64,000 nt of DNA from a virus: positions 1 to 64,000 of IMG/VR virus record IMGVR_UViG_3300043409_000868. One strand, 5' to 3'. The notes beneath the pieces are model-generated. The model was not told the origin of the DNA and did not search any database. It saw only the letters and a list, made by a program, of their open reading frames with translations. Made by a program: the position numbers and the translations under genes. Below are positions 16,917 to 40,929 of this stretch, in pieces; positions within the stretch are counted from its first letter, which is position 1, and each line of letters opens with the position of its first letter.

Positions 16917-19900
16917 ATGAGTACTAAGAGTTGCGATATTTCTGATTTTATAAAAAACCTAACAGAACAATTAAATCCCGATGGAACTAGAAAATTTACA
17001 GATGACCAAATTAAGGGAAAACTAAAAGTTGCTTACAAAAAGGGATATATTAGCCGTGCTCAAATTATCGCAGCCTCTGGCAAAGAAGATACTCTTATTT
17101 CAGAAACTGAATTTAAAGAATTAGAAACTTTGACTGATTTACTCGTTAGTTCTAATAAACCATTGTTTGATGTCTTTTCTCCAGAACAGGCTAAACGTTT
17201 ATTAGAGTTAACAAATAAAGCAAAAAATTCGGTTGGTTATGGTGAAGAAGGTAGATTAAATCAATCAAGACTTCAAGAAATTATTAATTTAGCATCAGAA
17301 CGAACACCAGAAACTTCAATTAGTATCTTAACTTTAGTTGATGAATCTATTCAAAGAGCTGAAAATAACGGAGATAAGAAAAGAGCAGCAGAACTTAGAG
17401 ACTTAAAAGTTAGATTTCAAAAGATGAACGACTTGTCATCTAAGTTAAAGATTGATTGGAATGCTATTGTAAAGACAAACAAACAATCAGATAAACTAAC
17501 AGCTGAATATGCAATTGTTAGATCAATTTTAGATGTAGGTGATAGAGAGACAGCTGAAAAAAGAACTGTATTAAGTCAAAAAATACTTGCTGTAGTAGAC
17601 GAACAAAAAACTATAATAAAAGATACTACAATATCCGAAGAAGAAAAGGTTAAGCCAGTAGCTAAATTAGAGGCAGAAAAACAAAACTTAGTTACACAAC
17701 TAGAAGAAATCACATCTAAAAAGTTTGCAGTAAATAGAAAAAAATTAGAAAAAAGATTAAAGACAATAACCCATGAACTTAGGCGATTACAGGATAACGC
17801 TCCTAATTCATTCTTAAATAAAATTTTAGTTACTGTAAGCGGAATGGACCCAGAGTTTGTTGTTACTAGTTTAAGAGAATTAAAAGAACGACAATTAAAA
17901 GTTGAAGACGATATTAAGTTAGTAGAGAAAGTTATTGAGCAGTATCCAACTGACAAAGAATTTTCTTTTCCAGAGTTAGAAAACTTAATTGGCGACGATA
18001 TCTCTACAACAAAATCAATTAAAAGTTATTTTTATGAGATTGATTTAGATGCAGATGGAAAACCAAGATTAGATTCATCTCTTAGGCCAATGAAAAAAAG
18101 AAAAGAGAAAATTACCTTTAGTGATATGAAGGCTATTGTTGACATTTGGAAAACTATTAAACGAAATAATTCATATGATTCTACAATTACAAATGTTGAA
18201 GCAAATATGATTAGAAACGCTTTATTAAGCGGAGATCAGAAATTAGTTAGTGAAGTTGATCCAGCAGATCCTTTACCTATTTCTAGGACTAACGCAGAAA
18301 GAATAACGTTAAAAGTTGGTAAACAATATGATCCTCGAAAACTAGAAGATAGGGTTTCTGCTATTAAAGATTTACATGTAGCTTTAAAACGATTAAGTTA
18401 TATCTCTTCTTTAGCAAACAATTCAGGAGTTATTTCAAGTGGAATGTTAGTTGGAGTGTTAGGATCTAATGCACAAAGCCTTAGTCATAAATTTGATAGC
18501 GCATTAGCTGATGATTCTGAGTTAAGTAATCCTTATATTCCAGAAGGTGAAACAACAAATGAAGGTCGTAGAGCTGTGTTAAGAGGACAATTAACTGCTT
18601 TAGGTTATTCTGATTCTGACATTAATGCTATGCCAGAAATGCGCAATGAATATCATGATGATTTTACTAAAATTCTGGCTTTTGATCTTGAATGGGAAAA
18701 AGGAACAAACAATATTATTGCTATTTCAATAGTAGAATTACTTAATGGAGAACCTACTCCAGTAAACTCTAGGGTAATTTATTCTACCGCTGGAAAAGAT
18801 AAAAATTTTAGTAAGGAAGATGCAGAAGAATTTTTACAATTAATACATAGATATCAGAATGAAGGTTTTAAAGTAACTGGACATAATATTCTTGGATCAG
18901 ACTCAGACGTACAGAAATTAGTATCTGTTTCTAAGAATACTAAATTAGGAATGTCTATTGCACTGAGATCTCTTGATACTATGCTTTTAGCGTTTAGGAA
19001 TGGAGATAAAACGTCATTTAGTAGAAACTTTGGTCCATCTTTAGATAATTTAGCGAAAGCTTTTAAAGTAGGTAGTAAAGCTGGTACTGGTATTACAGGA
19101 GAATCTGCACATGGTGTTTGGAAAAGTGGAGATTACTCTAAGTTTGAGGAATATATTCAAGGTGATTCTATCTTAGCTGCTCGTATTCTTCAAGAAATGT
19201 CAAAGAATGAAGGTAAAGATATTAAGGTAATGAATTCTAGGAAACAAGAACAAACACTGCATATACACGAAACAGTTCCTATTTGGTACGATACAGGAAA
19301 ACCAGAAATGGGAAGAAACCAAAGATATACTGGAGTAAATGTATTATATGATATTCAATCTTTTAATAACCTAAGAGAAAATGCTCAACAAACCATTTAT
19401 GATAATACCTTATACGATATAGCTAAAGTTAGAAATGTAATGACTAATATGGTTTTAGGTTTAATGCGTACTAACAATGCTAAAGATATTGATACTTTAT
19501 TTTCGGCAATTAATGCTTCTGAAACAGATGCATTAGAGAATATTGATATGGTAATGTCTATTTCAAGAGTTAATCACGAAGCTTATTTACCTATTCTACA
19601 ACAAGTTAGAAATAGTAATGGTAATAGATTCTTATCCAACGCAGCTAGAGAAGAAAATGGAGATATATCATATACATACTGTGATAATGGTACAGATTAT
19701 GAAAACCAAGTTATTGAAGAAATATTTAATACACTAAGTGCATATAATAGAAAAGCTGAAAAAACTATTACACGCTTTGCTGAATTAGTTGGGTTTAGGG
19801 GAATAGGTGAAACAGAAAACTTAATAGATTTTACAAAGGCTTTATTTAGTTTTTCTGCACAAAAATTTAATAATAAAGAGAGCATAAAAATACAAGACTT

Positions 19901-22900
19901 TGGTAATGGTATTTTTGACTATGTTTCAGCAGTTCAACTGGGTCGTGGTTTTTCACAAATTATGCTTGGTCATGTTGAGGAAGGTTTAACTTTATCTCAA
20001 AATATTAAAACTCCTGTAGAAGAAATTGATCGTATACGAGAAGTAGCAAAAATTGATGGAGAAGAGATTGCAGGAGAAGATAGTAGAAACTTAGTAGAAA
20101 AAAGAGAATATTTACCTATTACAAGACAAAACGTTAGTTACTTTGCTCCACTTAGTATGTACGAACAAGAACGAGCTTATAATGATTTTGCCTTACGAGA
20201 GAGATTTCATTATATCTTAAATAAAGATATTACAGATGATGATGTTAGAGAGTTTGAAAAATGGGTAGGTACAAACAAGATTGTTGAATTTAAAAACAAC
20301 ATTAAGGATAGACTTCGTTTACATAAACTCTTTAGAGAGGGATTAATAAAAACAGTAAATGATGTAAAACTCTTTATGTATGATTTAGGAATAGAATCTT
20401 TTACGGGATATGATCCTATTAGTATTATTCTTAATAAGGATTTAAGTAAAGATGAAAAGGTTAAGTTATTCTATGATGGAGCTTCTTTTGCTAAAAATGA
20501 GTTAGCAACTTATATGAAGGAGTTAGATAGAACTAGATTAGAACAAGGAAGAGTTCAGAATTATAATATTCTAATGATTGCCAATAATAGAGATATTTAT
20601 AATAGAATCCCTACATTAGAAGAAGTTAAAGAAATGTCACTAGAGGTTGCATTAGATCTTCCTCAAATGGTTGCTACTTGGGTACATGATTCACACAATA
20701 CTAGACCAGAAGAGAGACGACATCTAGAAGAAAAGAATTATTGGGAGATGTCGGAATTATCTTCTGGTGGGCCAACAGGAGCTGCTCTTTTAAGTGGCAT
20801 TTATCCACAAATAGCTTGGTACATGAGTCATCCTGAAATAACAAGTGATCCTAAAGCTATGGAACAATTAGTTTATAAATCATTGCAAAATGGTATAGCT
20901 GGTGGATCTAGGTTTTCTAGGTCTTCTTACTGGGACGATGTCCAAAGTGGACATCACCATATTGTGGCTCTTCAATGGGCTTATTTTCCTGATGAATCTC
21001 ATGTTCAAGAGGGTGGTTTATTACAGATTCTTGATAACATTAAGACTGGAAATGTAGGTCGTAGTGATCTAAAAGACTACTACAATGAAACCGCAAATGA
21101 GTTTGCTAAAGCTTTAGGTGAATTAACAAATGCTGCTATTATGAGAGGTGGATCTGACTCTAGTACAAATCCTGAATTAGCTCAAATTGAAAGAATAAAT
21201 AATGCTTTAAATAGGAGCAATGAATCAAGAGAATTCTTTAAGGGTGCCGTTATTCCCGTATTTTATAGTGCAGGATTTAATGGTGTTCTTAAAGGATTAA
21301 GAGATAAACAAAAGAAAATGCCTGGAGATCCTATTTCAGAATTAAATGATGAAGACATTCAATTTATTGCTGCAAAACTTACTGTAACTGGAGCAATTGG
21401 TACTGGACGATTAATAGATACAATTCTTGGCATGGATACAGAAAAGTCTAGAGAAATAATTAAGTTATTTGGAGAAGGAACAAAAAGATTAACTTTTGAT
21501 ATGAGAAAAAGATGGATTGATATAATGAATTTAGATAAGGATCTTAAGAATAATTATATTTCTGAAGATGCTGCTAGAGCAGGAATTAATCTTAGACTTC
21601 GTATGATTGCTGAACTAACATTACCAGCTAGATACGAAACAACTAGATTTGAAAGAGAAGAGTGGATTAAAGATAGAGTAAAATTACTTACTGAAAAATG
21701 GAATAAAAGAATTGAAAACGGAATGGAAATTATTAGAAAGTCTGGTAAAAAAGGAGTAGAAGTCGGAAGTCAATCAGAAAGAGACTTTCATGTTGCATTA
21801 GCAGGAAATGAATCAGCCTTTAAAACACAAATGTCATTAATGGCAATTAATCAAATGCAGAATTCTGGTCTTAAGTTAAATTCTTCTGATAGAGATATAT
21901 TAGAAGCATCAGTTAGAACTGGTAGATATATTGCTGAAGGTGATTTAATGTATGCTAATAATGTAGTATTTACTACAGTTGGTTTTGGTAGTGGTAGTGC
22001 TCGCGCTCAATATGTTGGTAATTATTTAACAAACTTACATGGCTCAAGACTAAGCAAAGGAAACCGAACAGTCTATAACGATGATCATTCTATTAACTGG
22101 GATGAGACAATTAAAAATAGTGCTTGGAGTCTAGAAGGAAATCCACTAACTGGTAAACCAAGAAATGAAGCTATTGCAGAAATAGATAAACTAGCAGTAA
22201 AACATTATCTTTTACAGGTTGCTACTGATTATGCCCCAACTATGATTGGTTATAATCAAGAGAATGAAAGTAGATCTAATTTCTTTAATCAATGGAAAAA
22301 TAGAACAAAACAAGAACGTGAATATGACTACATGGGTCGTATGAACGATGTTGCAAAACTAAAAACACTATATGAAACAGAAGATCCAACAACAAAAAGA
22401 ACATTAACAGACGCAGAAATTGAACTATCTATTGCTAGTAACTCAACTCCAATTAATAAGAGAATTGGAACTAGAATTTTAGCTGGTGATTTTGCGTCTC
22501 CCCATGACGAAACTGTAATGTCTATGTCAGATGCCAAGGGATTGGCTGCGTTTAGACCAAGATTGGCTGATGATGCTTTTGACGATAGAATAGTTCATGG
22601 TTTATACTCTATTTACCAAGGAACAAAACAATTAAATCTTGGAGTAGGTCGATTTAGATCTGCTGTGCAAAAACTAAAAGAAGACAATACAACTCCTGAA
22701 TCTATTCTGGATATGGAAAACTCAAGAGCAACTCAATACGACCCTGAAGAACTAGGAGTATACTTTCCTGAAATAGACTCTTCTTTAACCCAAGAAATAT
22801 TTGGACAAAGACCAACATTTAATCAAAAACTAAATAAAATGAGATTTTTATTAGATACTTTTGGTATGCAGCACGGTTTACAAGAATTAGTTAAAGCAAA

Positions 22901-25900
22901 AGAATATACTCGTTTGTATCAAATTTATAAAGTTAGACAGGCAATGAAAAAGTTTGCATTACTTCTTGGTGAAAGTAAAGATTCTAAATGGGATATGAGA
23001 TTCTTACATAGACACTTTATTCAACAAGTATTTAGAATAACAAAAGCCCAAAGAGATGCAAGTAATTCTTCTAGAAATCTCTTAAATTTCCTTAAGTCAA
23101 TTGGAATTGATCCTAGTCTATTTAAAGATGGATTTGGTAATAATCTTCACTGGATTGATACTCTTGGCATACTTGCTGACATGGGTATTGAAGAACTTAG
23201 TACTCTTAAGTTTGGAATGTCTCCAGTAGAAATGTTAACAACATCAACAACAGAAACTCCAAGTATATTAAAAAGTGGATCTACTATTGTTATGCCTAAT
23301 GTAATTCAGGGTGAAGATGTTTCAGTTATTATTCAGAGTATATGGGCAGATGTAAGGGTCCAACAGAAAGCTACTGAATATGCTGATAGATTAGTTAGTG
23401 AAGGTACTTTAAGTTCATATGAAAAAGATCCAACAGGAAAATATATTTTACTTGCTGCTGTACCTAAGGATATTCAAGTACAGATTGCACAAACTATATT
23501 TACAGATGATGAATTGATTATGGATGTTGCAGAAAATCTTGGTTTACATGTAACTTTAGAGTTTGTAGCTGGCGAAAATATGCTTAGATTACAAGGATCT
23601 AAACTACATGCTTCATCTTTGGGAGCATATGTTGTTCCACGAAGAGGACTAGGTTTTCCTTCTGCTAATCGAACAGTACTTGGTGAAAGAGATGTTAAAA
23701 CCTATTTAACTCCAGAGGCTGTTAAATCAATTCTTTATTCTGCAAAAAATGCTAAGTTTTTTAGTAGATTAGAGACTGCTGTACAAGTAGATAAATACTT
23801 GGGGCAAACAACTATTGTTGATAGATTACGACAACAACAATATGGAGAATATCTTGATAGACATTTAGAGCAGATAGCCGAAGAAACCGAACTTTTAGAG
23901 GCTCTTGAAGAAGGTAAACTACAGAAATTAAGAACTGAAAGAATGAGGGATGAATTAGGTGTTGAATTAAATTTATATGACGCTGAAGCATACTTTACCT
24001 CAGAAGATGAAATAACTGGATTAACCCCATTTAAAAATGCTATGTCATTGGATATGAGAATTGCTTATGAAAGAGCAAAACAATATCCACTTTTACAAGA
24101 TGAAGCTGAGACATTAAGGAAATTAACAACCAAAGTAGAACATGAAAAACTTTTTTTACAAATTTCCTTTATAACTTTTCTTAGAAATAACGTAAGTGGA
24201 AAAGAACTAACAGATCCTCAATTACGAATGCTTGTAAATGAGCATTTTGGATCAGAACTCACTAATTCAGAGTTTGAAAGCCTTATGAAAAACGCTAATG
24301 AAATTACTGAAATTATAGATAGAATTAATTTCTCTCCATTTAAAGGTAAAAATCCATATTTAGCACAAGCTGTAAAACATAGACAAATGCTGTTATATGA
24401 TCCTGATGTTTTAAATGTAACTAGTGGATATAGAAGTCAAAATGATATTATTAATTTTATGGAAGAATTTGATATTCCAAGTAAGGACTATGAAATAGCA
24501 GCACAAGCAGTTATTGAAGCATACGCAATTACTAATCGTTCTGTTGGTAACGCAGAAACATATTTAACTATTCCAAGCAGTGATCTAGTTAATATAGCAT
24601 CTGATCCAGATGAATTTGCTAGGGTATTCCCTAGTGGAAGTCACATTAATTCTCAATTATCAAAATTAGTGAAAGATGGGGTTATTGACGGAGAAACTGA
24701 AATATTTTATCGCCTCTTAATTGGTAAAATTTTAAAACATAATCCAAACTTAGCAAAATTCTTATCTATTGAATGTGATGACTTAAGTACTTCTAGATCT
24801 GCAGAAGCTGTTAAAGAAGATGATAGATTTATAATAAAACTTAATACAAAGTTATTAAAAAATATGGGTAGAATTGATCAGACAAGGGTATTTGCACATG
24901 AGATTTCCCATATTGCTCGTTTAGCTTTTATTGCCGATAACAGTCCTGAATGGAGAAAAGTAGAGTCTTTATTTAGATCTAAAAAGGGAAGAGACAGTAT
25001 TCCTACTATGTTACTTATTATGAATAATAATAGTAAATATGAAGGGTTTGATCAAGATGTAAAATACTATACTGAAAACGTAGAAGAATTTCTTGCTCAA
25101 TGGGGATCGTGGATTTTATTAGAAAAAGTATTTAATAATCCAGCTGTAATGCAAGCAATACAATCCAGGAGTACGGCAGCTTTATTTGCAAGTAATGCTT
25201 ATAAATCTTCATTTTATAGGATGCGAGATGAAGTTCTTAGTATTACAACTGGTTTAGCTGAAGTAGACGAAGGTGTATTATCTAGTATTTTAGATATAAC
25301 AGAGAGTATGTTTGGATTTACTTCTTCTGTAGAAAGAACAATTCACGTTACAAATGCAAATCAAAAACTAGGGATGATAAGTAGTTTTGATACGCCATTA
25401 TCTAGTAGAGAAGGAGAAGTAGATAAACTATCTAGCTTACAAAACAAAGTAAATGTTTCTGGCATTTCTTCTTTGACTGTAATTGAGCAGGCAGAATATA
25501 AAATTTTAACAAATAAATATAGCGTTTCTCCATTAAAGAATTTAGATATTGTAACATATAAAAAACTTAGAAGCACACGAGAATCTAGACAAGGAACTTC
25601 ATTAGCTCTTCCGCATGTAAGGTCTAGTTCAGGTAAATTTCTAAGTACACTTGATGATTTAAAAACTCCAGAAAAATTAGAATTGGCTAATACTATAATT
25701 CTTGAGTCTATTAAACGGGGTGGAAAATTAGCTAGAAATTTAGGAACTGTTGGTGGATTAGCCCGAGAACAATCGGAAAAAATGTTTGGTAAAAAAGCTA
25801 CTGAGATGTTTTTAGTTAGTAGATATTTATTAGGAACATGGGATTTAACTCAAGCAAGTAAAACACATCAAAGCCAGAATATTGTAGTAGCTTCTTTAAT

Positions 25901-29159: not shown

Positions 29160-29161
29160 AT

Positions 29162-29201
29162 GTTAGCTGTCGCTAACAAACGTACCTATGCGTTACATAG
29201 G
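29162..29201 (+). promoter_or_regulatory. Early-cassette double hairpin, copy 1
   Basis: Hairpin gttagc-tgtc-gctaac, a seven-base spacer (aaacgta), then hairpin cctatg-cgtta-catagg. The same arrangement recurs at 29371-29410, and its second hairpin at 29762-29778, each just upstream of the ribosome site of a small gene. It is either a promoter (N4 virion RNA polymerase uses hairpin promoters) or a 5' leader structure protecting mRNA. Confidence 0.7.
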
Positions 29202-29366: not shown

Positions 29367-29370
29367 GGAT

Positions 29371-29410
29371 GTTAGCTGTTGCTAACAAACGTACCTATGC
29401 GTTACATAGG
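29371..29410 (+). promoter_or_regulatory. Early-cassette double hairpin, copy 2
   Basis: gttagc-tgtt-gctaac, spacer aaacgta, then cctatg-cgtta-catagg. Through the second stem it differs from copy 1 only in one loop base. It sits upstream of the 82-aa membrane protein gene. Near-identity of the stems, loops and spacer between copies means the sequence itself is under selection. Confidence 0.7.
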
Positions 29411-29690: not shown

Positions 29691-29752
29691 GCTAAGAGGC
29701 TACCCAAGCTCCCTAGGGAAACCTAGGGAGCGAAGGGCTGTATCTTAACAGC
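29691..29752 (+). repeat. 62-bp early-region repeat, copy 1 (GAAA hairpin plus small hairpin)
   Basis: The repeat contains gctccctagg-gaaa-cctagggagc, a 10-bp stem closed by a GNRA-type loop, then gaaggg and a second hairpin gctgt-atctta-acagc. A near-identical unit lies at 29976-30037. In both, the unit follows a gene's end and precedes the next gene's leader. It likely acts as a paired 3'-end/5'-start RNA element. Confidence 0.8.
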
Positions 29753-29980: not shown

Positions 29981-30037
29981 GAAGCTACCCAAGCTCCCTA
30001 GGGAAACCTAGGAAGCGAAGGGCTGCGTCGTAGCAGC
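29976..30037 (+). repeat. 62-bp early-region repeat, copy 2
   Basis: Second copy of the unit at 29691-29752. The GAAA-loop stem has one changed base (aagc for gagc), and the small hairpin is gctgc-gtcgta-gcagc where copy 1 has gctgt-atctta-acagc. The stem end changed as a pair (t-a to c-g), which supports the RNA structure. It lies 74 bases before the compact polymerase gene. Confidence 0.8.
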
Positions 30038-31957: not shown

Positions 31958-31985
31958 CACTCCCTAGGGGAAACCTTAGGGAGTG
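31958..31985 (+). terminator. Hairpin after the compact polymerase gene
   Basis: cactccct pairs with agggagtg, with extra pairs inward around a gggaaa-type loop. It belongs to the same cctagg-gaaa-cctagg family of 3' hairpins seen after other early genes. No T-run follows. Confidence 0.55.
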
Positions 31986-32481: not shown

Positions 32482-32509
32482 GAGACAAGTAAAACAAGTA
32501 CGGAGCAAC

Positions 32510-32531
32510 CCCCCTTGGGCAACCAAGGGGG
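32510..32531 (+). terminator. cccccttgg-gcaa-ccaaggggg hairpin
   Basis: A perfect 9-bp stem with a GNRA-type loop (gcaa), 28 bases after a stop codon. It belongs to the class of early-region 3' hairpins. No T-run. Confidence 0.6.
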
Positions 32532-32642
32532 CCTCTCCCTATTTGTTCTAGGTAATATGAGTTATTATATACTCTAGACTATTTGTAACCATAGACTATG
32601 GAGTAGTTATAGACTATAGGCATATCATTATACCCAGGTCAG

Positions 32643-32696
32643 TACCATACCATACCCATACCATACCCATACCATACCCATACCATACCCCTACCC
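32643..32696. repeat. Tandem 11-bp repeat (ataccataccc)
   Basis: Four to five near-perfect head-to-tail copies, ending in ccctaccc. The purine/pyrimidine-asymmetric strand (only A, C and T within units) is notable. It could be a protein-binding iteron array or a slippage product. Confidence 0.85.
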
Positions 32697-32828
32697 AGCT
32701 TATAGAATGCCGTAGCGGTCATCCTAGGGCCATTTCCTGCCATTCTACAAGGTATATCCAGCAGCTATCTATAAAAAATGCGTATAACTGTGGAATGCCC
32801 TGCTAATTTCCCATATTATACTTATTTA

Positions 32829-32853
32829 TCGTCCCCTTCGGGGACCGTGGTGG
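32829..32853 (+). promoter_or_regulatory. tcgtcccc/ggggacc hairpin element, copy 1
   Basis: A 6-bp stem gtcccc/ggggac with a three-base loop (ttc), followed by cgtggtgg. It lies ~80 bases before the 87-aa gene. Five copies exist at 32831, 33204, 38457, 41335 and 46105. All are on the + strand, with invariant stems and variable loops, and none is followed by a T-run. Confidence 0.75.
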
Positions 32854-32934
32854 AAATTGAGTAGTACTCAAGCCCAGATATAATATAGATCAGAGCGTAA
32901 ACTATCTATAGATATATCTGAATTAGGAGACAAC

Positions 32935-33198
32935 ATGTCTGATCCCAATACGCCTGACATCTCCGTTGATCCCATCGCAGCTGTTTTTCCTGTTGATCCC
33001 GTTGCTACAATGCTTCGGACTGGCCAAATTCTCATCACTCTCAAAGGTGAGTCAAATTGGCCTGGGAATTACAAGAACCTGAATGACCGTCAAATCATGA
33101 ATTTGATCAAGATGGTTCAAGAAGGTCGAGCTAACAAGCCAGAGACGGTCAAGGCTATCCTGCGGGAAGCGTTGGATCGTCAACTCATCTCGCCATGA
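32935..33198 (+). CDS. Unknown protein flanked by hairpin elements (87 aa)
   Basis: ATG at 32935 has an aggag ribosome site. The N-terminal 35 residues are Pro/Asp/Val-rich and probably disordered (SVDPIAAVFPVDPVATML). The rest is helical (NLNDRQIMNLIKMVQEG). No family recognised. The gene is bracketed by copies 1 and 2 of the gtcccc/ggggac hairpin and isolated between two long non-coding stretches, as expected for a self-contained transcription unit. Codon use is intermediate between the G+C-rich early genes and the AT-rich bulk. Confidence 0.65.
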   Translation: MSDPNTPDISVDPIAAVFPVDPVATMLRTGQILITLKGESNWPGNYKNLNDRQIMNLIKMVQEGRANKPETVKAILREALDRQLISP

Positions 33199-33201
33199 GT
33201 A

Positions 33202-33246
33202 TCGTCCCCTAAGGGGACCGTGGTGGTCTATAGGGAAACCTATAGA
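33202..33246 (+). promoter_or_regulatory. gtcccc/ggggac hairpin copy 2, followed by a GAAA-loop hairpin
   Basis: Stem gtcccc-taa-ggggac with the same downstream cgtggtgg as copy 1, starting four bases after a stop codon. It is directly followed by tctatagg-gaaa-cctataga (8 bp, GNRA-type loop). The two elements together could end one transcript and begin another. Confidence 0.7.
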
Positions 33247-33658
33247 TCATCTTTCAGGTCTATCAAGAGCCTATACATAAATCTTGGTGCAAACATCAAC
33301 TAGGTAGCCAATCTGGAGGCTAAGTAGTGCTCTTAATGATGTAGCTTATAGTGTAGCTTACTATAAGTATTCACCTAAGCATGTGTTTAAACTGCTTACG
33401 CTGTCCAAGAACGGTAGTCATAAGTTTCTTGGTATTCACCTAAGCAATGTGCCTAAACTGCTTACTTTGTTAACTACTGGCTGTGCCAGAGTTTGGTACC
33501 ACAATGTCCGCCAAAAACCTATAATAGGGCGGTATAAAAATACTATACCATTACGGTACATAGGTAAATTGCGTATACCGCGACTCAACTAGATGAGTAT
33601 AAATAGGGTTTAAGTCTAGTGCGCCCCCTTCCATTTTACGATGGGGGGTACCCAGCGA
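33247..33658. other. Non-coding stretch with long direct repeats
   Basis: I see no credible gene: the one 69-codon frame at 33383 simply translates the repeats and has no ribosome site. It holds two long repeats at 33371-33401 and 33435-33464, several tagcttata/tataagta near-palindromes, and a ccat-tttacg-atgg hairpin near 33631 flanked by ccccc and ggggg. Confidence 0.55.
33371..33464. repeat. Direct repeat pair tcacctaagca...taaactgcttac
   Basis: Two ~30-bp copies 64 bases apart. Shared core: ttcacctaagca, then a(a)tgtg, then taaactgcttac. A third, weaker copy is at 33967-33998. A shorter cacctaag core recurs at 33947, 34386 and 34441. The spacing and orientation suggest iterons of an origin or a multi-site regulatory region. 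Confidence 0.75.
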
Positions 33659-33864
33659 GGGTAACAATAATTGAATCATACCTCAACTCTTCTGTTGACA
33701 TCCATTCAATTTTAGAAGTATTGTTATCTAGACTAAACAGCAATTGTTAAGTTTGCCGAGTCACACAATTGCTGGGATCAATAAACTCGGATCTTCCTAC
33801 ACAAAGGGGCACCTTTGTATAGGAGTTTACCGCAAGCAACCTAGCCCATAGGCGGTATATAAAT
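33659..33864 (+). ncRNA. Candidate structured non-coding RNA with pseudoknot
   Basis: Complementary segments seen by eye: ggtaacaata (33660-33669) with tattgttatc (33719-33728), then the inner pair attgaat/attcaat (33670-33676, 33704-33710), then tcaac/gttga, forming one rod. Next is a 10-bp stem cagcaattgt (33738-33747)/acaattgctg (33765-33774). Its loop carries ccgagt (33756-33761), which can pair with actcgg (33785-33790), a pseudoknot. Then cctacacaaagg/cctttgtatagg (33796-33807, 33812-33823; one mismatch, loop ggca) and ccta/tagg. No coding frame spans it. I recognise no known RNA family. Strand is assumed to match its neighbours. Confidence 0.6.
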
Positions 33865-34052
33865 AGTGGGACATTATACTGTGTAGACCTAAGCATGTCA
33901 AAAAAAGGCTTTGGATTTAGGGTATGATAAGACTATCCTAGCATATCACCTAAGGTATGTATAACTTTCACACCTGAATATGTGTTTAAACTATTTACAG
34001 ATTACAATACACCTAGGCGTACTAGGTATTACTTTATTGGAGATATATTTAA
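33865..34052. other. AT-rich non-coding stretch with cacctaag-type repeats
   Basis: No gene seen. It contains gacctaagcatgtca (33886), atcacctaaggtatgt (33946) and a diverged long repeat at 33967-33998, plus a ribosome site (ggag) shortly before the next ATG. The cacctaag motifs continue at 34386-34460. Confidence 0.55.
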
Positions 34053-34304
34053 ATGACTGATTCAGGTATCCGTATTGCGCTTTGGGAAGTCAACAGTGAG
34101 AATCCCAACAGCCCTAAGTTCAATGGTATTGTTACTATTGATGGTAAGGAGCACAAGGTATCCCTTTGGGATAATTCGGCAGCTACGCACCCTAAAGCCC
34201 CAAGGCTTAAGGGAAAGACGAGCCGACCAAGTCCAAAGGTTGAAGAAGAGTCCATGATTACTGAGATTATCTGTGTCCCTATGGGCACGAATCTCCCCTT
34301 CTAA
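34053..34304 (+). CDS. Small phage protein with an 'LWxN..' core (83 aa)
   Basis: ATG at 34053 follows ggagatatattta. The beta-rich core reads IRIALWEVN, then FNGIVTIDGKEHKVSLWDN, then HPKAPRLKGK. It resembles small single-domain phage proteins with paired LW...N motifs (DUF736-like in tone); I am not certain of the family. The C-terminal tail is acidic and ends with a hydrophobic strand. The gene is followed by a convincing intrinsic terminator. It may bind nucleic acid through an OB-like fold; this is a guess. Confidence 0.65.
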   Translation: MTDSGIRIALWEVNSENPNSPKFNGIVTIDGKEHKVSLWDNSAATHPKAPRLKGKTSRPSPKVEEESMITEIICVPMGTNLPF

Positions 34305-34308
34305 TCAG

Positions 34309-34342
34309 GGGGTACTTAGGGAAACCTAAGTACCCCTTTTTT
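34309..34342 (+). terminator. Intrinsic terminator (12-bp stem, GAAA loop, T6)
   Basis: ggggtacttagg-gaaa-cctaagtacccc followed by tttttt, five bases after a stop codon. It is a classic rho-independent terminator and one of only two in the window with a clear T-run. Confidence 0.88.
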
Positions 34343-34471
34343 CCGAATACCCTAGTATATAGCTAGGGTTTAACCTTAGGTTTATCACCTAAGAATAACC
34401 TAAGATACTTAGGTTATATAGTATTATTATTATAGTATTATATCACCTAAGTATTAACCTAAGAGGGATAT
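34343..34471. other. AT-rich leader with cacctaag repeats
   Basis: It contains ccctagtatatagctaggg, tatcacctaagaataacctaag and tatcacctaagtattaacctaag separated by a tattattattatagtattat tract. The repeated cctaag/cttagg words can form several alternative stems. It ends in gagggatat before the next ATG. Likely a promoter or regulatory leader. Confidence 0.5.
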
Positions 34472-34870
34472 ATGTCACACGAAATTGTTGAAGAAGTTGC
34501 TAAAAGGTTAGATGCTAAGGTTCTTATAAGATTTGAAGACAGCAATGGTTACCAAGGTGTAATCTATTATGTCTTAAGTAAGAGTAATACTTACTCTATT
34601 GTATCTGTTCACTACGGGACCTGTGCTCTTTGTGATTTTCAACTTGGTTTGATTGAAGAATACCGAGAAATGTGGCCTGATGTTAATAATGAGATTCCCC
34701 TTAGTGCTTTCGAGCCTATGATTCAATCTCTTTTTAAAGATGTTGAAGAGTTTGGATTCCATTCAGTTGAAGACCTTATCACTAAATTTGATATGATCTT
34801 TGGTGTTGGCTACAGTGAAGAACTTGTTCGTGAAGAAGTACTTAAGTATCTTCTTCGTAATTGTCTATAG
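34472..34870 (+). CDS. Unknown acidic protein (132 aa)
   Basis: Starts MSHEIVEEVAKRLDAKVLIR after a gaggg site. A mixed alpha/beta N-terminal half carries a CALC pair (residues ~51-54), and the C-terminal half is helical and acidic (FKDVEEFGFHSVEDLITKFD). No family recognised. AT-rich codon use like the bulk of the genome. It leads a run of small uncharacterised genes up to the DUF932 gene and probably belongs to the same transcript. Confidence 0.65.
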   Translation: MSHEIVEEVAKRLDAKVLIRFEDSNGYQGVIYYVLSKSNTYSIVSVHYGTCALCDFQLGLIEEYREMWPDVNNEIPLSAFEPMIQSLFKDVEEFGFHSVEDLITKFDMIFGVGYSEELVREEVLKYLLRNCL

Positions 34871-34880
34871 GAGAATAATT

Positions 34881-35246
34881 ATGGGTCTTGATACTTATGC
34901 TGTATACTCTAGTAAACATCCTAATTATACTCAGGATGGGGATAACTCCATACCTGACACATTGTTCCCCGATAACAACCTGTGTGGTGGGATGTTTAGT
35001 GGAATGGGTGCCTCATTTCGAGGCAAACGTTACAATGACTATGTAGAATGGGCAACTGGGGTTTCCCTTTATGATCGTTTAATTGATTCAGAAGTTGTCC
35101 AAGATATGTATATCTCACTAAAGAATGCTGACTTTAGGCAGTATCGTGGTGATAATTGGGGTATTACTAAAGAAGAAACAAAACAACTAACGGAATGGTT
35201 CCGTGTAGTTAGTGAAGAAAATGGCTCTATTGCAGGATGGTGGTAA
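34881..35246 (+). CDS. Conserved 'MGLDTYA' phage protein (121 aa)
   Basis: ATG at 34881 has an aggag site; an earlier in-frame start would overlap the previous gene. The opening MGLDTYAVYSSKHPN and the following LCGGMFSGMGASFRGKRY with a C-terminal WGI/EWFRVV region are typical of a small protein family common in tailed phages and of unknown function. Conserved aromatic and glycine residues suggest a compact globular protein. The stop is one base before the next ATG. Confidence 0.75.
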   Translation: MGLDTYAVYSSKHPNYTQDGDNSIPDTLFPDNNLCGGMFSGMGASFRGKRYNDYVEWATGVSLYDRLIDSEVVQDMYISLKNADFRQYRGDNWGITKEETKQLTEWFRVVSEENGSIAGWW

Positions 35247-35247
35247 C

Positions 35248-35619
35248 ATGTATACAGTTGATATGTCTATTGTTAATAAGAAGGTTCAACAGCGTGTAGA
35301 GAAGATCCAAACTGTAGCTAACGCTAAGAAGATTCCTTTGATTGCTGCTGCTATGTGGGTAGACCAGAATGGTCCCGAGAGCACCAATAAGAAGATGTTG
35401 GCTGAGATTGGTATGAACTTTGATGAGGTTACATTGGATAACTACAAGGATGTTCTTGTTGGTCTTGAGTGTATCAATGTCAAGGTTGTATGGCAAGAGA
35501 ATCATCCTCTTACCCGTGTTGTTGAGCAACTCAATGAAGTAATTAATGAAACAATTACTGAGTGTTGGGGTGGCGAAGACATGCAAGAGTTTATTGAACT
35601 TACTCCTATCTTCGAGTGA
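35248..35619 (+). CDS. Unknown helical protein (123 aa)
   Basis: ATG at 35248 follows the preceding stop by one base and depends on translational coupling; upstream ggatggtgg offers only a weak ribosome site. Features: basic helical start (MSIVNKKVQQRVEKIQTVAN), a middle with GPESTNKKMLAEIGMNFDEV and an acidic end (WGGEDMQEFIELTPIFE). No recognisable family or motif. Confidence 0.62.
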   Translation: MYTVDMSIVNKKVQQRVEKIQTVANAKKIPLIAAAMWVDQNGPESTNKKMLAEIGMNFDEVTLDNYKDVLVGLECINVKVVWQENHPLTRVVEQLNEVINETITECWGGEDMQEFIELTPIFE

Positions 35620-35643
35620 AGGTACACAAAATACGGATAATCT

Positions 35644-35901
35644 ATGTCTGAATCAAAATCTTTAGTCGCATTCAGTGGCTATCACGCTAAGATTAATCCA
35701 ACCCTTAGCGTTAACTTTAATAGTTCTTATCGCAGTGAAGATAAGCATAACTATAAGTGTACATATGAGGTTGTTGTTGATGGTAATGCTGCTTGGCTTA
35801 CCATTGAAGAAATTTATTCTCTTGTAAATCATTTACAAAAGATTCTTTCTATTTCTAATCAAATCCCACACATTGGTAATGTAAATGTTTACCCTTCCTG
35901 A
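35644..35901 (+). CDS. Unknown small protein (85 aa)
   Basis: Starts MSESKSLVAFSGYHAKINPT. It has beta-rich Ser/Asn segments, then a helix (TIEEIYSLVNHLQKILSIS). The ribosome site (acggataatct) is weak. No family recognised. It overlaps the following 54-codon gene by 17 bases. Confidence 0.55.
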   Translation: MSESKSLVAFSGYHAKINPTLSVNFNSSYRSEDKHNYKCTYEVVVDGNAAWLTIEEIYSLVNHLQKILSISNQIPHIGNVNVYPS

Positions 35902-36049
35902 TGATGAGTTTAATTGGTTGTTCTCTTATAACACGGATGGTGGACGAGTAGTCCATCAAGATGATGAGGAACGAGATGAATATGGAAATCAACCGTCTGA
36001 AGTCGAGACTGATCCTCAATACGGATGCCTCGACCGCTGGTCGAATTAA
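35885..36049 (+). CDS. Very acidic small protein (54 aa)
   Basis: ATG at 35885 lies inside the end of the preceding gene. The product MFTLPDDEFNWLFSYNTDGG continues with a run of Asp, Glu and Gln residues (HQDDEERDEYGNQP) and ends near DRWSN. Strong acidity is typical of small phage proteins that mimic DNA or bind basic host factors. It shares DNA with the next gene's start in another frame. Moderate support only. Confidence 0.42.
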   Translation: MFTLPDDEFNWLFSYNTDGGRVVHQDDEERDEYGNQPSEVETDPQYGCLDRWSN

Positions 36050-36161
36050 TGAGTTGTTTGAGCGAGGAATCATAGCTGATTTCTCTGAAGATGGATGGGT
36101 ACTTTACCATAAAGAGTGGTATCCATTCAACACTTTCCTTGAAAGGATTAAGTATGTCTAG
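35976..36161 (+). CDS. Unknown small protein overlapping its neighbours (61 aa)
   Basis: The frame is open from 35961. ATG 35976 follows gaggaacg, the best ribosome site. The N-terminal half is basic (MEINRLKSRLILNTDAST) and the C-terminal half aromatic (WVLYHKEWYPFNTFLERI). Its end overlaps the first codons of the DUF932 gene. No family recognised. Confidence 0.5.
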   Translation: MNMEINRLKSRLILNTDASTAGRINELFERGIIADFSEDGWVLYHKEWYPFNTFLERIKYV

Positions 36162-37116
36162 TGTGTTTAATTTTGTTGGTGCTACAGTCGAGGGTCTTTC
36201 TCTCGAAAAGGCAACCAGTCTAGCTGAGATGAATTGGAGCGTAAGTAAGCGTCCTATTTATGTCTCAGATATTTCTGAAGGAAAGAATAGCAATGAACTA
36301 TTCTCTACGAGTAAGTTCTTTGCTACTACTAGGGATGATACAAATCAAATCCTTGGTATCGTTGGACCTGATTATCAGGTTGTTCAAAACAGCGAGCTTG
36401 CCTATATGTGTGAGCGTCTTCAGGGATCTGATGTAAAGATTGAGACTGCTGGTATCCTTGATAACGGTCGCCGAGTCTTTATTCAGATGCGTGGAAATCC
36501 ATTTGATGTTGGTCCTAAGCACGATACCAACATCCCTTATACCTTGTTCACTAATGGACATGATGGACAATGGCCCCTTAGTTCGTTGCCTACTTCTTAT
36601 CGAGTGATCTGTCAGAATACTCTGAACATGGCACTACAGAATGGTAGCAAGACTAATATGATTATCAGTATCCGACATACTGGTAACATGCAAGATCGTC
36701 TTGAGTCTATGTTCCAATCAATTCAGAATTGGAAGGATCGTACTGTTACTTTCCAGAATCAAGTAGAACTACTTGCTCGTAAGGAAGTTAATACCGAGCT
36801 TGTCCAAAGCTTCTGGACTAATCTCTATGTAAATTTGTTTGGAGATATCCATGAAAATCCTACTACAGAGGAACATTTGGACAATAACAAATCCGCAATG
36901 TCAACAATGACTACGTGGAGTAATACATTTGACTCCGAGGTTAAGTTGAGTGGTGCTAACATGTGGACTGCAGCTAATGCAGTTACTTCATGGTTGGATC
37001 ACAACCAAATCTATCGTGGTGTAAAGAAGAATGAAAACAGGTTCAATGATACGCTCTTTGGCACTGGTGCCAAGGAGAAGGTTCGTACTATGAACTATGC
37101 TCTGACTGCTATCTAA
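36154..37116 (+). CDS. DUF932 / TIGR03299 phage-plasmid protein (320 aa)
   Basis: ATG at 36154 follows gaaaggattaa. Family features: an N-terminal segment with MNWSVSKRPIYV, then FATTRDDTNQILGIVGPDYQVVQN (residues ~55-85), a GNPFDVGPKHDTNIPY segment with FTNGHDG (~125-150), and RVICQNTLNMAL (~160). This is the core of DUF932, widespread in phages and plasmids and linked in several systems to replication regions, though its biochemical role is unsettled. Length is typical. It is followed by a strong intrinsic terminator, so it ends a transcription unit. Confidence 0.88.
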   Translation: MSSVFNFVGATVEGLSLEKATSLAEMNWSVSKRPIYVSDISEGKNSNELFSTSKFFATTRDDTNQILGIVGPDYQVVQNSELAYMCERLQGSDVKIETAGILDNGRRVFIQMRGNPFDVGPKHDTNIPYTLFTNGHDGQWPLSSLPTSYRVICQNTLNMALQNGSKTNMIISIRHTGNMQDRLESMFQSIQNWKDRTVTFQNQVELLARKEVNTELVQSFWTNLYVNLFGDIHENPTTEEHLDNNKSAMSTMTTWSNTFDSEVKLSGANMWTAANAVTSWLDHNQIYRGVKKNENRFNDTLFGTGAKEKVRTMNYALTAI

Positions 37117-37121
37117 TTATA

Positions 37122-37159
37122 GGGTAACCTAGGAAGTAATTCCTAGGTTACCCTTTTTT
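37122..37159 (+). terminator. Intrinsic terminator (13-bp stem, T6)
   Basis: gggtaacctagga-agtaat-tcctaggttaccc then tttttt, five bases after the DUF932 stop. A perfect 13-bp stem; clear rho-independent terminator. Confidence 0.93.
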
Positions 37160-37234
37160 ATTTTACTATGAAAAAAATTATTGATGTTACTGTTCGTATA
37201 ATTTTATATGATCAACTCAATGTTATAGATACAT

Positions 37235-37714
37235 ATGAGGAAAGGAAGTGTACTGTCCTTGAAGATTCACCTAATTGTTTATCGATTACAGAATGTAATA
37301 GATCCTTTGTCAACCATGTATCAACGAGTCTTCTCAACATGGAACCACTGTGCGATACAAGTTGATGATATTGTCATACATTTCTATGATGATTTACCTT
37401 TACCTAGGTGGACAGAACTAAATGTAGATGTTAAACTTCCACATTGTAGAACATCTATAGATCTTGGTGAAACTACTAAGACTTGGCAGGAGATACGAGA
37501 GTTCACAAATAATCTACCTAACATGCGTACTATAGATTATATAGTTAGATATCTCTCTCCCCTAACTCTTTTTAAATTTCCAAAAAAACATAATGATTGT
37601 ATACACAAATGCAGTCAAACCTTACAATTTATGTTTGGGTGTGATATAATAACATCTACCCCAGATAAACTCCTAGAATACATGAAAGAATTTAATGATA
37701 AAAGTAGGCACTAA
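37235..37714 (+). CDS. Permuted papain-fold (YiiX/NlpC-like) protein, up to 159 aa
   Basis: After a variable start the protein reads KIHLIVYRLQNVIDPLS, then STWNHCAIQVDDIVIHFYD, and near the end HNDCIHKCSQTLQFMFG. An early catalytic-type His (NHCAI) and a late Cys (NDC or HKC) are the order of circularly permuted papain-fold hydrolases, which cleave amide or ester bonds. ATG 37235 lacks a clear ribosome site; TTG 37259, giving MKIHLIVYR, after aaaggaa may be the true start. The stop overlaps thyX. Substrate unknown; assignment rests on the His/Cys pattern. Confidence 0.6.
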   Translation: MRKGSVLSLKIHLIVYRLQNVIDPLSTMYQRVFSTWNHCAIQVDDIVIHFYDDLPLPRWTELNVDVKLPHCRTSIDLGETTKTWQEIREFTNNLPNMRTIDYIVRYLSPLTLFKFPKKHNDCIHKCSQTLQFMFGCDIITSTPDKLLEYMKEFNDKSRH

Positions 37715-38420
37715 AGGATTTGTAACTTTAATTGAGACTCTTGGTTCTGATTTAACTATTGTTAATGCAGCTAGGGTTTCATTTAATAAAATTAGTAAGT
37801 GGGATGAAGATGCATCCCTTGTAGACAATAATGGATTGCTTGATGTTACGTATAAATTAAATGATAAAGATAAACATCTTATTCATTACTTGGCAAAGCA
37901 TGATCACTGGACTCCCTTTGCACATCCTCAGATTTGTTTACATATTAAGGCACCTATCTCTATTCGTACACAATTCTTTAAGCATAAGGTAGGATTTGTA
38001 GAAAATGAATTGTCTCGTCGTTATGTTGATGAAGAACCAGAATTCTTCTATCCTGAGTGGTCATCTAGACCTACAGGATCTATGAAGCAGGGTGCTGGTG
38101 ACAACCTAGATAATAATGATTCAAATCGTGCTGTATATTTCTATGATTATGCAGTTAAAGCTGCTAAGTCAGCCTATGATGATCTTATTAAGCTTGGCGT
38201 AGCCCCAGAACAAGCAAGATTTGTTCTACCTCAAGGTACTTATACCGAATGGTATTGGACTGGTAGTCTTGCTGCTTATGCAAGGTTTTATAAACAACGA
38301 TCTAACTCTCACGCTCAAGCAGAAATTAGAGACTATGCAGATGTAATTAGTACAATTATTAAGCCTTTGTTTCCCATTAGTTGGAATGCGCTTACTAATA
38401 CTTTTGTAACTCCTCAGTAA
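37695..38420 (+). CDS. thyX: Flavin-dependent thymidylate synthase ThyX (241 aa)
   Basis: Makes dTMP from dUMP using FAD, NADPH and methylene-tetrahydrofolate. Signature region, residues ~100-113: KHKVGFVENELSRRYV. The canonical motif is RHRxxSxNExSxRY; here both arginines around the first His are lysines. Other family blocks: IHYLAKHDHWTPFAHPQICLHI near 55-80 and LPQGTYTEWYWTGSLAAYARFYKQR near 180-205. Length is usual. It overlaps the preceding gene by 20 bases. With the ribonucleotide reductase, deaminase and dNMP kinase further on, it supplies DNA precursors. Confidence 0.93.
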   Translation: MIKVGTKGFVTLIETLGSDLTIVNAARVSFNKISKWDEDASLVDNNGLLDVTYKLNDKDKHLIHYLAKHDHWTPFAHPQICLHIKAPISIRTQFFKHKVGFVENELSRRYVDEEPEFFYPEWSSRPTGSMKQGAGDNLDNNDSNRAVYFYDYAVKAAKSAYDDLIKLGVAPEQARFVLPQGTYTEWYWTGSLAAYARFYKQRSNSHAQAEIRDYADVISTIIKPLFPISWNALTNTFVTPQ

Positions 38421-38456
38421 CCACGCTTGTAGCTATGCTACACTCAAAAAATTATC

Positions 38457-38471
38457 GTCCCCTTCGGGGAC
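38457..38471 (+). promoter_or_regulatory. gtcccc-ttc-ggggac hairpin, copy 3, before the T7-like polymerase
   Basis: The same 6-bp stem and ttc loop as copy 1, preceded by ttatc and followed by cattgtg. The stem ends 22 bases before the polymerase ATG and four bases before a potential GTG start. The T-run needed for a terminator is absent. Confidence 0.75.
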
Positions 38472-38493
38472 CATTGTGACACAAAGGAGAACA

Positions 38494-40929
38494 ATGCTAG
38501 AATCTTGGCATAAATTAAGTGTGGAAGAAAAGTCTCGTAGAACAACAATGCAAAAGATCTACGAGGAAGAGTTGCTTGAAAATGGTGTTGAAAAATATTG
38601 GAAAGAGTATGGTAGGTCACCTGATGAAGGTAAGCCAGAACAACTGCTACTTGAATCAGCTGTAATACATCTCACTCCTTATTACCAAAAATGGATTGAT
38701 GAATGTTGTAGTAATCGTAAGTCACCTGATTGGCTAGCACCTTTACTTAGTATTGGTGCAGCTAAGATGGCAGATATTACTCTTCGATCAATGATGAGAT
38801 TGTTTCTAACAAGAAATACAATCCAAAGTTTTGATGATACAATGGGTATCCCAGCTAATGCTCCTGTTGCTCAACAAGTAGCAAAGCTTATCTCTGAGGA
38901 TGTTGTATCTATTGTTGCTTATCAACAAGCAAAGAAACGATTCTCTGAAGATTGGCGTAAGCAATCTAAGTTCATTAAGAACTGGACTGTTAAGCGGTGC
39001 AAAGCATTTACATCTAAAGTTGCTAAGATCCCTAAGCTAAGGCCTAAGGAGAAAGAAGACTTTGGTCACAACATGCTTAGAGTTGCCCTCTCTAGTGATA
39101 TCCTCACTAGTAGGATTCATTGGAATGGTAAAAATAAAAAGTCATTACTAGTATCTTTCTCTCCTTGGATCTTATGTGAAATCCAAAAGAGACATGAGCT
39201 ACTAGAGACAGCTTGCCTTGTTTACAGGCCAATGATCTCACCACCCATCCCACATACAACTAAAGAAGATGGTGGGTTTCTCAGCCCCTGGGTGCGTAAG
39301 AAGATGATCAAGAGATATCATCCTGTTGGAGCAGATCCAAAGGAGTGGGACTCAAGACCATCCCCTATGGTTCTTAAAGGTCTTAATGCTTTAATGGAAA
39401 CAGAGTGGTCAGTTAACACTCAAGTCTACCAAGTCATGAAGACTATGTTTGAGAATGATTATAAGGCTGCTAACATTCCTGCATACACATTCAGAGACTA
39501 TGCTTTCTCTAGGGAGTATCCCATTGATGGGACCAAAGAAGAGAAAGCTAAGTGGATGCAAGAATCTAATGAAGCATGGGGCGAGTGGTATAAGGAAGAA
39601 CAATCACGATCTAGAATGATCGTTAGATTAGAGTTGGCAAGAAAGATGATTCAATGGAACTTCTTTTATATGCCATACACCCTTGACTTTAGAGGACGTA
39701 CCTATTCGGTATGTGAACTTCTATCTCCTCAAGGTATTGACTTTGATCGAGGACTTGTTCACTTTGGAATGCCACGTAAACAAACTAAAGAAGGTTTGTA
39801 TTGGTTGTATGTCCATGTAGCAAATCTATTTGATCAAGACAAGAAACCATTTGACCACCGTGTTAAATGGGTTAAAGATAATATGGATCTCTTCCTCCGT
39901 ATTGCTGATGATCCATATGCTAATAAAGAATGGATTGATCCAAGTAAGAAGAAGAATAAATCATTTCAAAGATTGGCTGCTATCTTTGAGGTATGCAGGA
40001 CAGATGGACTAACACAACTCCCTGTTCAAATGGATGGTGCAAATAATGGTGGTCAACATTGGGCTGCTATTATGCGTAATAAGAAACTTGGTATCCTAAC
40101 TAATCTTATTAAAACAGAAAAGCCACAAGATCTCTATCAGTATGTAGCTGATGCTGCTACTGAGTTTATGAAAGAGAATCCAACTAATAGATGGTATCCT
40201 GCATTTCTAGAGTATTGGGATAATAGACTTCCTCGTAGTGTAACTAAGCGTTCTACTATGTGTGATGCTTATGGTCTTACATTCTATGGTATGCAGAAAT
40301 ATGTCAAGCAAGAGGGTCATGTAGATTGGGTAAGTAAAGAACAAAGAGGTGGAGCTGTAGTAGAACTAGCTCGCGCTATCCAAGTTGGCCTAGGTGAGAC
40401 AATGCAATCGCCTAACCTAGGCAAAGTTTGGCTACGAGAAGTAGCTACTATTCTTAACTCTTTAAACAAACCTTTTGTATGGACTACACCTAGTGGCTTT
40501 GAGGTACATCATGTTTATAATCAAATACTTGAACGAGTCAGTTATGCTGAGTTGTTTAATCGTCAGCAACTTGTTTTCAGCACTGTTACGGAAGACCTTA
40601 ATGGTAAAGCACAATATCTTGCAATTTCTCCAAACTATATCCATTCGCTAGATGCTGCTCATATGTTTATGACAATTTCTAGGATGTTAGATACAGGTAT
40701 GAGTGCCTTTTCATTTGTCCATGATTCTTATGGAACATATGCACCTGACATTCCTGTCATGCATAAGCTATTGCGAGAAGAATTCATCAAGATTCATAAG
40801 GAGAATCAACTTGAAAACCTCAAAAAAGAAATTGAAAAAAGATATGGAATCTATCTCCCCGAAGTCCCCACCCAAGAAGAAGGTTTTGACCTCCAAGAAG
40901 TCGTTGAATCAGAATACTTCTTCGCTTAA
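38494..40929 (+). CDS. T7-like single-subunit DNA-directed RNA polymerase (811 aa)
   Basis: Transcribes phage genes from phage promoters. All catalytic motifs are canonical: DFRGRTY (D398-R402), motif A MDGANNGGQHWAA (D514), motif B R581-x3-K585-x7-Y593-G, motif C FVHDSYGTYAPD (H743, D744). The C-terminus ends SEYFFA; the terminal FA is typical of the family. ATG 38494 is preferred because aaaggag sits just before it; the frame also has GTG at 38476. T7 RNAP is 883 aa. It is expressed behind a gtcccc/ggggac hairpin and precedes replication genes. No T7-type 23-bp promoter consensus was recognised in the late gaps. Confidence 0.97.
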   Translation: MLESWHKLSVEEKSRRTTMQKIYEEELLENGVEKYWKEYGRSPDEGKPEQLLLESAVIHLTPYYQKWIDECCSNRKSPDWLAPLLSIGAAKMADITLRSMMRLFLTRNTIQSFDDTMGIPANAPVAQQVAKLISEDVVSIVAYQQAKKRFSEDWRKQSKFIKNWTVKRCKAFTSKVAKIPKLRPKEKEDFGHNMLRVALSSDILTSRIHWNGKNKKSLLVSFSPWILCEIQKRHELLETACLVYRPMISPPIPHTTKEDGGFLSPWVRKKMIKRYHPVGADPKEWDSRPSPMVLKGLNALMETEWSVNTQVYQVMKTMFENDYKAANIPAYTFRDYAFSREYPIDGTKEEKAKWMQESNEAWGEWYKEEQSRSRMIVRLELARKMIQWNFFYMPYTLDFRGRTYSVCELLSPQGIDFDRGLVHFGMPRKQTKEGLYWLYVHVANLFDQDKKPFDHRVKWVKDNMDLFLRIADDPYANKEWIDPSKKKNKSFQRLAAIFEVCRTDGLTQLPVQMDGANNGGQHWAAIMRNKKLGILTNLIKTEKPQDLYQYVADAATEFMKENPTNRWYPAFLEYWDNRLPRSVTKRSTMCDAYGLTFYGMQKYVKQEGHVDWVSKEQRGGAVVELARAIQVGLGETMQSPNLGKVWLREVATILNSLNKPFVWTTPSGFEVHHVYNQILERVSYAELFNRQQLVFSTVTEDLNGKAQYLAISPNYIHSLDAAHMFMTISRMLDTGMSAFSFVHDSYGTYAPDIPVMHKLLREEFIKIHKENQLENLKKEIEKRYGIYLPEVPTQEEGFDLQEVVESEYFFA

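Follow-up and report, generated by a model that had tools for sequence, protein, structure and literature searches.

Three different single-subunit RNA polymerase (ssRNAP) genes are present in one T7-like phage and keep a fixed synteny across related records, a finding which is well supported. The phage is the virus record IMGVR_UViG_3300043409_000868 (69,006 bases), of which bases 1–64,000 were analysed (the window); an exact 127-base repeat at the ends of the record makes a complete genome probable. The three genes code for a giant protein of 3999 amino acids (aa), a compact protein of 607 aa and a T7-like enzyme of 811 aa. An initial annotation of the window had placed the three open reading frames (ORFs) correctly (Table 1), and its proposal of three ssRNAPs in one phage is supported by the protein families, the catalytic residues and the synteny. 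Most surprising is the order of the catalytic blocks in the giant, which is reversed. Overall, we consider a giant polymerase with reversed blocks, acting together with a compact and a T7-like enzyme in a three-step cascade, to be the likely explanation.

The T7-like RNA polymerase served as the anchor in finding relatives: 45 related viral loci were obtained, and an alignment of this protein added further ones. Scans of viral contigs with the giant core alone or with the compact protein alone yielded no relatives, and scanning the genomes of bacteria and archaea brought up no relative of the T7-like RNA polymerase. The lineage appears to consist of uncultured T7-like viruses of bacteria, mainly from aquatic metagenomes; as part of the overall explanation, it is probably a lineage of T7-like podoviruses whose genomes, of about 65–80 kb, encode three ssRNAPs. 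The giant was found in 16 of the 20 related records searched, those without a match being fragments of 37–47 kb. Directly after it, about 0.6–1.7 kb downstream, comes a compact gene (586–667 aa) in 15 assembled related records and in the window's own record (16/16), and the T7-like RNA polymerase gene then follows; in three records this order runs across contig ends. The morphogenesis set is T7-like, as annotated, and comprises tail, terminase, portal, scaffold and capsid. Located after the internal virion protein genes, the giant occupies the place of T7 gp16, the last internal virion protein.

The T7-like and the compact enzyme

By its sequence, the 811-aa protein is a standard T7-like RNA polymerase, the canonical enzyme that the initial annotation had seen in it. 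It matches PF00940 (4.7e-82), phrog_414 (3.6e-150) and 2574 phage records, and its motifs follow one another as in T7 (GR, A, B, C). The ORF at 38476–40929 yields 817 aa from a GTG and 811 aa from the ATG at 38494, which is the start used by relatives. In an 82-kb relative (G018, L044/L045) the gene is split near residue 618.

The 607-aa family is, judged from sequence conservation and a predicted fold, a single-subunit RNA polymerase with a palm/fingers fold and the catalytic residues kept. The window's own protein gave nothing useful in direct Pfam, PHROG and PDB searches, and relatives were required. Among the 17 family members D270, G275, K330, Y338, G451, D510 and D540 are invariant and R173 and H539 nearly so. 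These conserved residues represent the four T7 motifs, running from GR through A and B to C as in T7 itself, in agreement with the four motifs originally read in this protein. Eight of the 17 members match phrog_414 (best 8.6e-44) and seven match PF00940 (best 9.4e-16). Aligned by hhalign with T7-like RNA polymerases (1.9e-31), the family covers positions 292–827 of the T7 profile, from which we conclude that the N-terminal domain of T7 RNA polymerase is absent from the compact enzyme. An AlphaFold2 model (pLDDT 74.6, pTM 0.72) has, as the initial annotation expected, the palm/fingers fold; its best Foldseek matches in PDB are T7 RNA polymerase (5.5e-13) and mitochondrial RNA polymerases. Compared with viral RNA polymerases the model reached 1.1e-15, the best viral match being the 648-aa RNA polymerase of phage phiEcoM-GJ1. 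Furthermore, one compact relative matched the RNA polymerase of Marinomonas phage CB5A in tblastn (1e-16).

In the set used for the phylogenetic tree the equivalents of T7 R425, D537, K631, Y639 and D812 are kept, except that a single sequence has His in place of R425, and Phe replaces the H811 equivalent in four rows. The T7-like enzymes of the lineage form one clade adjoining the known T7-like RNA polymerases, and all compact enzymes but one fall outside the T7-like group, on far longer branches. On these long branches the compact enzymes did not come out clearly as one clade. The label 'RNAPII-like', originally given to the compact enzyme, is not borne out in the sense of membership: compact relatives are much weaker on phrog_2051 (9.3e-14) and on the N4-like phrog_2166 (3.1e-6) than on phrog_414, and most of them are separate from N4 RNAPII in the tree.

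The G+C content of the compact gene is 50–59% in every relative, compared with 37–46% for the whole records. A recent transfer as the cause was rejected, since the high G+C content is kept in every relative.

Catalytic blocks of the giant protein

Direct Pfam, PHROG and PDB searches with the window's own 3999-aa protein gave nothing useful. The giant alignment comprises 21 giants, which are 14–24% identical to the window's sequence. An invariant Asp, Lys, Tyr or Arg occurs at just six of its columns, D1258, D1340, D1387, K1442, Y1450 and R1696, and these six residues include the T7 catalytic set. Motifs A, B and GR, which the initial annotation had reported for this protein, are real and invariant in the 21 giants; it missed the C-like HD before motif A and the location of GR after motif B. 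The order C-A-B-GR is found in 21 of 21 sequences, in place of the canonical GR-A-B-C. As the motifs lie at 422 (GR), 536 (A), 627 (B) and 810 (C) in T7 and at 420, 557, 666 and 948 in N4, the T7 blocks 1-2-3 appear as 3-2-1 in the giant. An assembly error was rejected as the source of this order, which is identical in 21 sequences. Two motifs picked by eye, SELSSGGP for A and SPHDETV for C, are not conserved and were likewise rejected.

Motif B carries Y-x-x-G, matching the N4 pattern, and D1387 is the Asp of DxY, which comes after motif A in both T7 and N4 (DPR in six giants). The block around R1696 aligns with the T7 stretch QNTAWKIN...DWRGRVYA...PQG. In marine giants the motifs look more T7-like (IHDS, TYFDGNFNGIHH, FKKPVMVYLYGAG and SGRLYATE); marine giants match phrog_414 directly, at 1.9e-6 to 1.4e-4, and for one the N4 profile gave a match as well (1.4e-4).

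To compare the giant block by block, its sub-blocks were aligned with one profile merged from the T7-like and compact enzymes (the ssRNAP profile) and with N4 vRNAP profiles, column-shuffled profiles serving as the control. On the ssRNAP profile every sub-block had its best match in its own counterpart. The A-B block matched the ssRNAP profile at 2.1e-4 and N4 vRNAP at 1.2e-5, the GR block at 3.7e-5 and 0.0012 (0/70 shuffles each), and the C block matched motif C of the ssRNAP profile with P 0.017. None of 70 shuffles of the ssRNAP profile was as good for any of the three blocks, and all three placements on it recurred when the giants were divided into two non-overlapping sets, one of 12 and one of 9. 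What the computations show is that the giants, the compact enzymes and the T7-like enzymes are three families of polymerases whose catalytic residues are intact and whose synteny is kept, and that the rearranged order of the giant is conserved. These sequence matches point to a single-subunit RNA polymerase core with reversed blocks, C first, then A-B, then thumb/GR, which belongs to the explanation that we hold to be likely as a whole.

Ahead of this core the giant has a DEDDy 3'-5' exonuclease domain. PF13482 RNase_H_2 is matched by 9 of the 21 giant relatives (best 3.2e-11), and the exonuclease block matches PolA exonucleases at 9.4e-4. In distant giants of 5200–5490 aa (G023/L201, G029/L199, G032/L200) the exonuclease follows the core; this difference in position indicates a separate, movable module. 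The zincin-like HExxH motif of the giant reads EExxH in part of the relatives.

Order of transcription and alternative readings

Within 28.9–46.6 kb sigma-70-like sites are not above chance (48 versus 44.5 expected). The hairpin element ATCGTCCCC(TNN)GGGGAC occurs at four intergenic sites on the + strand versus 0.01 expected by chance, and a variant with a four-base loop is located at 46104. A second hairpin, TGTAGC(TAT)GCTACA, lies just 5' of the T7-like RNA polymerase start in the window and in at least 12 related loci, and is replaced by the compensated form TATAGC(ATA)GCTATA at some related loci. Both elements form a stem of 6 bp with a loop of 3 nt; N4 vRNAP promoters are hairpins with a stem of 5–7 bp and a 3-nt loop. 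By this analogy in shape we regard the two elements as candidate promoters, a lead and not evidence of use by the giant.

In the cascade that we propose, the giant is probably a packaged virion component that is ejected together with the DNA. The genes transcribed first would be its targets, beginning with the adjacent compact polymerase gene; the compact enzyme would serve an early or middle gene set that includes the T7-like RNA polymerase gene, and the T7-like enzyme would then transcribe the replication and morphogenesis genes. Without the first ~290 residues of T7 RNA polymerase, including N-terminal promoter-binding parts, the compact enzyme probably needs another kind of promoter recognition. 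Packaging, activity, promoters and timing we infer, the virion location and the early, middle and late order from gene order alone. That the giant family, probably virion-borne, represents active DNA-dependent RNA polymerases from the T7 superfamily whose blocks are reversed, which have a fused 3'-5' exonuclease of the proofreading type and which start a cascade of three ssRNAPs, has in our view an even chance. A different cascade of the same three enzymes, for instance one in which early transcription is begun by the RNA polymerase of the host or by the compact enzyme, is somewhat less probable, although a serious alternative as timing was read from gene order. The frequencies given above speak against it, with sigma-70-like sites at chance level and hairpin elements above it that resemble the N4 vRNAP type.

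For the giant core itself, several observations weigh against an ssRNAP with reversed blocks. Motif C was placed with just 18 aligned columns, and against the N4 profile the C block falls, weakly, on the GR region (P 0.085–0.15). The 3-2-1 order cannot be reached by one circular permutation. When the blocks were joined in all six orders, hhalign did not place 3-2-1 clearly above the others, a test which is uninformative because long insertions between the blocks prevent chaining. The AlphaFold2 model of the core, built from 21 sequences, reached a pLDDT of 64.3 and a pTM of 0.58; confidence was low in the palm and near the motifs of the active site, and Foldseek found no match for this low-confidence model, an outcome that speaks neither for nor against the core. 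Finally, three distant records (G024, G025 and G028) have a giant of 3259–3808 aa without a detectable core. In birnavirus and permutotetravirus RNA-dependent RNA polymerases (RdRps) the palm is permuted to C-A-B and the active site is normally assembled (PMC4666646); therefore, such a rearrangement can leave an active site intact. The catalytic residues of the giant might be brought together in space in the same way.

In a rival arrangement the core would be an ssRNAP that has undergone one simple circular permutation (A-B-C-thumb-GR); its true motif C would then lie between B and GR, and HD1257-1258 would be something else. Such a single permutation is the commoner evolutionary event, and the evidence for motif C at 1258 is weak. 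However, there is no invariant Asp between B and GR (distant giants lack D1501, and D1676 is present in 17/21, compared with 21/21 for D1258), and the region from motif B to QNT matches nothing in the ssRNAP, N4 or PolA profiles. Thus, we regard a circular permutation as unlikely. Little probability is also left for a core that descended from an RNA polymerase and is now a DNA-binding or structural ejection protein or a primase, or for a coincidence of motifs. The absence of a confident fold and the weak direct profile matches would fit such a reading, but at so low an identity to the window the catalytic set stands among the invariant polar residues, and three independent block matches were reproduced in two disjoint subsets. 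Very improbable, finally, is a DNA polymerase A-like enzyme for repair or end processing at DNA entry: a DEDDy exonuclease with a match to PolA exonucleases precedes the core as in PolA, but it follows the core in distant giants and hence is a separate module, the polymerase blocks have no comparable match among family-A DNA polymerase profiles (0.1 to 0.34, compared with 1e-3 to 1e-5 for A-B and GR on ssRNAP or N4 profiles), motif A is mostly followed by DxY and not DxH, and GR is followed by P-x-G as in RNA polymerases.

Table 1. Positions of the polymerase genes, motifs and hairpin elements in the window and of ribozymes in related loci
Feature	Position	Strand	Remarks
Giant protein, 3999 aa	16917-28916	+	T7 gp16 position; exonuclease, rearranged ssRNAP core and HExxH region
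DEDDy 3'-5' exonuclease domain, aa ~584-756	18666-19184	+	PF13482, PolA exonuclease match, residues
Giant motif-C-like H1257-D1258, before motif A	20685-20690	+	D 21/21, H 18/21
Giant motif A, D1340-x4-G1345-x-H1347	20934-20957	+	D and G 21/21
Giant motif B, R-x3-K1442-x7-Y1450	21228-21266	+	K and Y 21/21
Giant QNTxW and GR block, aa ~1640-1730, R1696, after motif B	21834-22106	+	R 21/21
Giant HExxH zincin-like motif, aa 2661-2665	24894-24914	+	weak Pfam SprT-like match, E 0.068
Compact single-subunit RNA polymerase (predicted), 607 aa	30111-31934	+	family invariants, profile and fold matches, tree
ATCGTCCCC(TNN)GGGGAC hairpin, copy 1, candidate promoter	32829-32845	+	
ATCGTCCCC(TNN)GGGGAC hairpin, copy 2	33202-33218	+	
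Conserved hairpin TGTAGC(TAT)GCTACA, candidate promoter	38428-38442	+	6 bp, 3-nt loop; upstream of T7-like RNA polymerase gene
ATCGTCCCC(TNN)GGGGAC hairpin, copy 3	38455-38471	+	adjoins T7-like RNA polymerase start
T7-like RNA polymerase, 811 aa	38494-40929	+	Pfam/PHROG matches; ORF listed from GTG 38476
ATCGTCCCC(TNN)GGGGAC hairpin, copy 4	41333-41349	+	
Self-cleaving ribozyme, L006	3125-3193		
Self-cleaving ribozyme, L009	4327-4390		
Self-cleaving ribozyme, L016	4850-4927		
Self-cleaving ribozyme, L019	4875-4927		
Self-cleaving ribozyme, L025	4579-4645		
Self-cleaving ribozymes, L026	2028-2093 and 2507-2575		

Further structured elements lie near the compact gene. A Pistol ribozyme (RF02679, 50 bits) is located downstream of it at 33583–33653 (+); five relatives have a Pistol ribozyme downstream of this gene, and in a sixth the gene is preceded by two type-II hammerheads. 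At 29708–29731, 29997–30012, 33227–33246 and 34309–34336 there are long intergenic hairpins whose tetraloops are GNRA or TTCG. Such hairpins recur flanking the compact gene in related genomes, many around CCTAGG, and some end in T-runs, similar to terminators. Between the giant and the compact gene a hairpin TGTTAGC(TGTY)GCTAACA followed by CGTACCTATGCG is repeated at 29161–29178 and 29370–29387, and is present in G015, too. Elsewhere in the window there are four tRNA genes, for Ile (TAT, 43655–43729), Arg (TCT, 44543–44616), Leu (TAA, 46126–46209) and Lys (TTT, 46212–46284). From the translations, a collagen-like GxT repeat protein is encoded at 58249–59418, and an ORF at 60101–60910 has two dockerin-like repeats, DFNNDGLVTAQDM and DINGDGTVNSQDL.

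Relation to known polymerases

Phage N4 (Schitoviridae; vRNAP gp50, RNAPII gp15 and gp16) also has a giant protein with an ssRNAP core, and a second phage RNA polymerase follows in its cascade. The A-DxY-B block of its vRNAP can be aligned with the giant. However, N4 vRNAP has the canonical order GR-A-B-C, and the giant is collinear with it in the A-B block only, its GR block being displaced. Furthermore, the giant core had no match among 50,697 cultured-phage records, and we know of no DEDDy or N-terminal exonuclease domain, as present in the giant, in N4 vRNAP. Therefore, the initial designation as an N4-style virion polymerase does not stand in the sense of membership. N4 RNAPII is a heterodimer, whereas the compact enzyme is a single ORF. 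As far as the accessible part of the N4 annotation goes, its RNA polymerase genes are vRNAP, RNAP1 and RNAP2 only. The portion available of a survey of N4-like viruses (PMC10654107) treats the N4 vRNAP as a hallmark of Schitoviridae and does not mention the three-polymerase combination.

With T7 and the Autographiviridae the lineage shares the T7-like RNA polymerase, the replication and morphogenesis set and the gp16 position of the giant. In contrast, T7 has one phage RNA polymerase, made early by the host enzyme, and its gp16 is a protein of 1318 aa without a polymerase. The permuted RdRps have motif C ahead of A and B like the giant, but they are RNA-dependent, belong to another superfamily and have no displaced GR/thumb block. 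To our knowledge, the phiEcoM-GJ1 RNA polymerase does not occur together with two further RNA polymerases. It (BFVD A9Q1Q4) is similar to the 607-aa enzyme in size and predicted fold, with an identity of 13%. The virion RNA polymerases of crAss-like phages are, like the giant, giant virion-borne proteins; their catalytic core is of the multisubunit type (double-psi beta-barrel) and unrelated to ssRNAPs.

T7-type RNA polymerases are textbook enzymes, and neither rearranged catalytic blocks in them nor a permuted single-subunit DNA-dependent RNA polymerase was found described in the open-licence literature. If three one-piece polymerases act in succession in one lineage, the evolution of transcription cascades in phages would become testable, and the lineage could be a source of new small RNA polymerases for laboratory use. 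If the core of the giant is active, the T7-type fold tolerates the reversal of its parts, an RNA polymerase exists with an attached exonuclease, and there is, besides N4, a second route to virion-carried transcription by a single-subunit enzyme.

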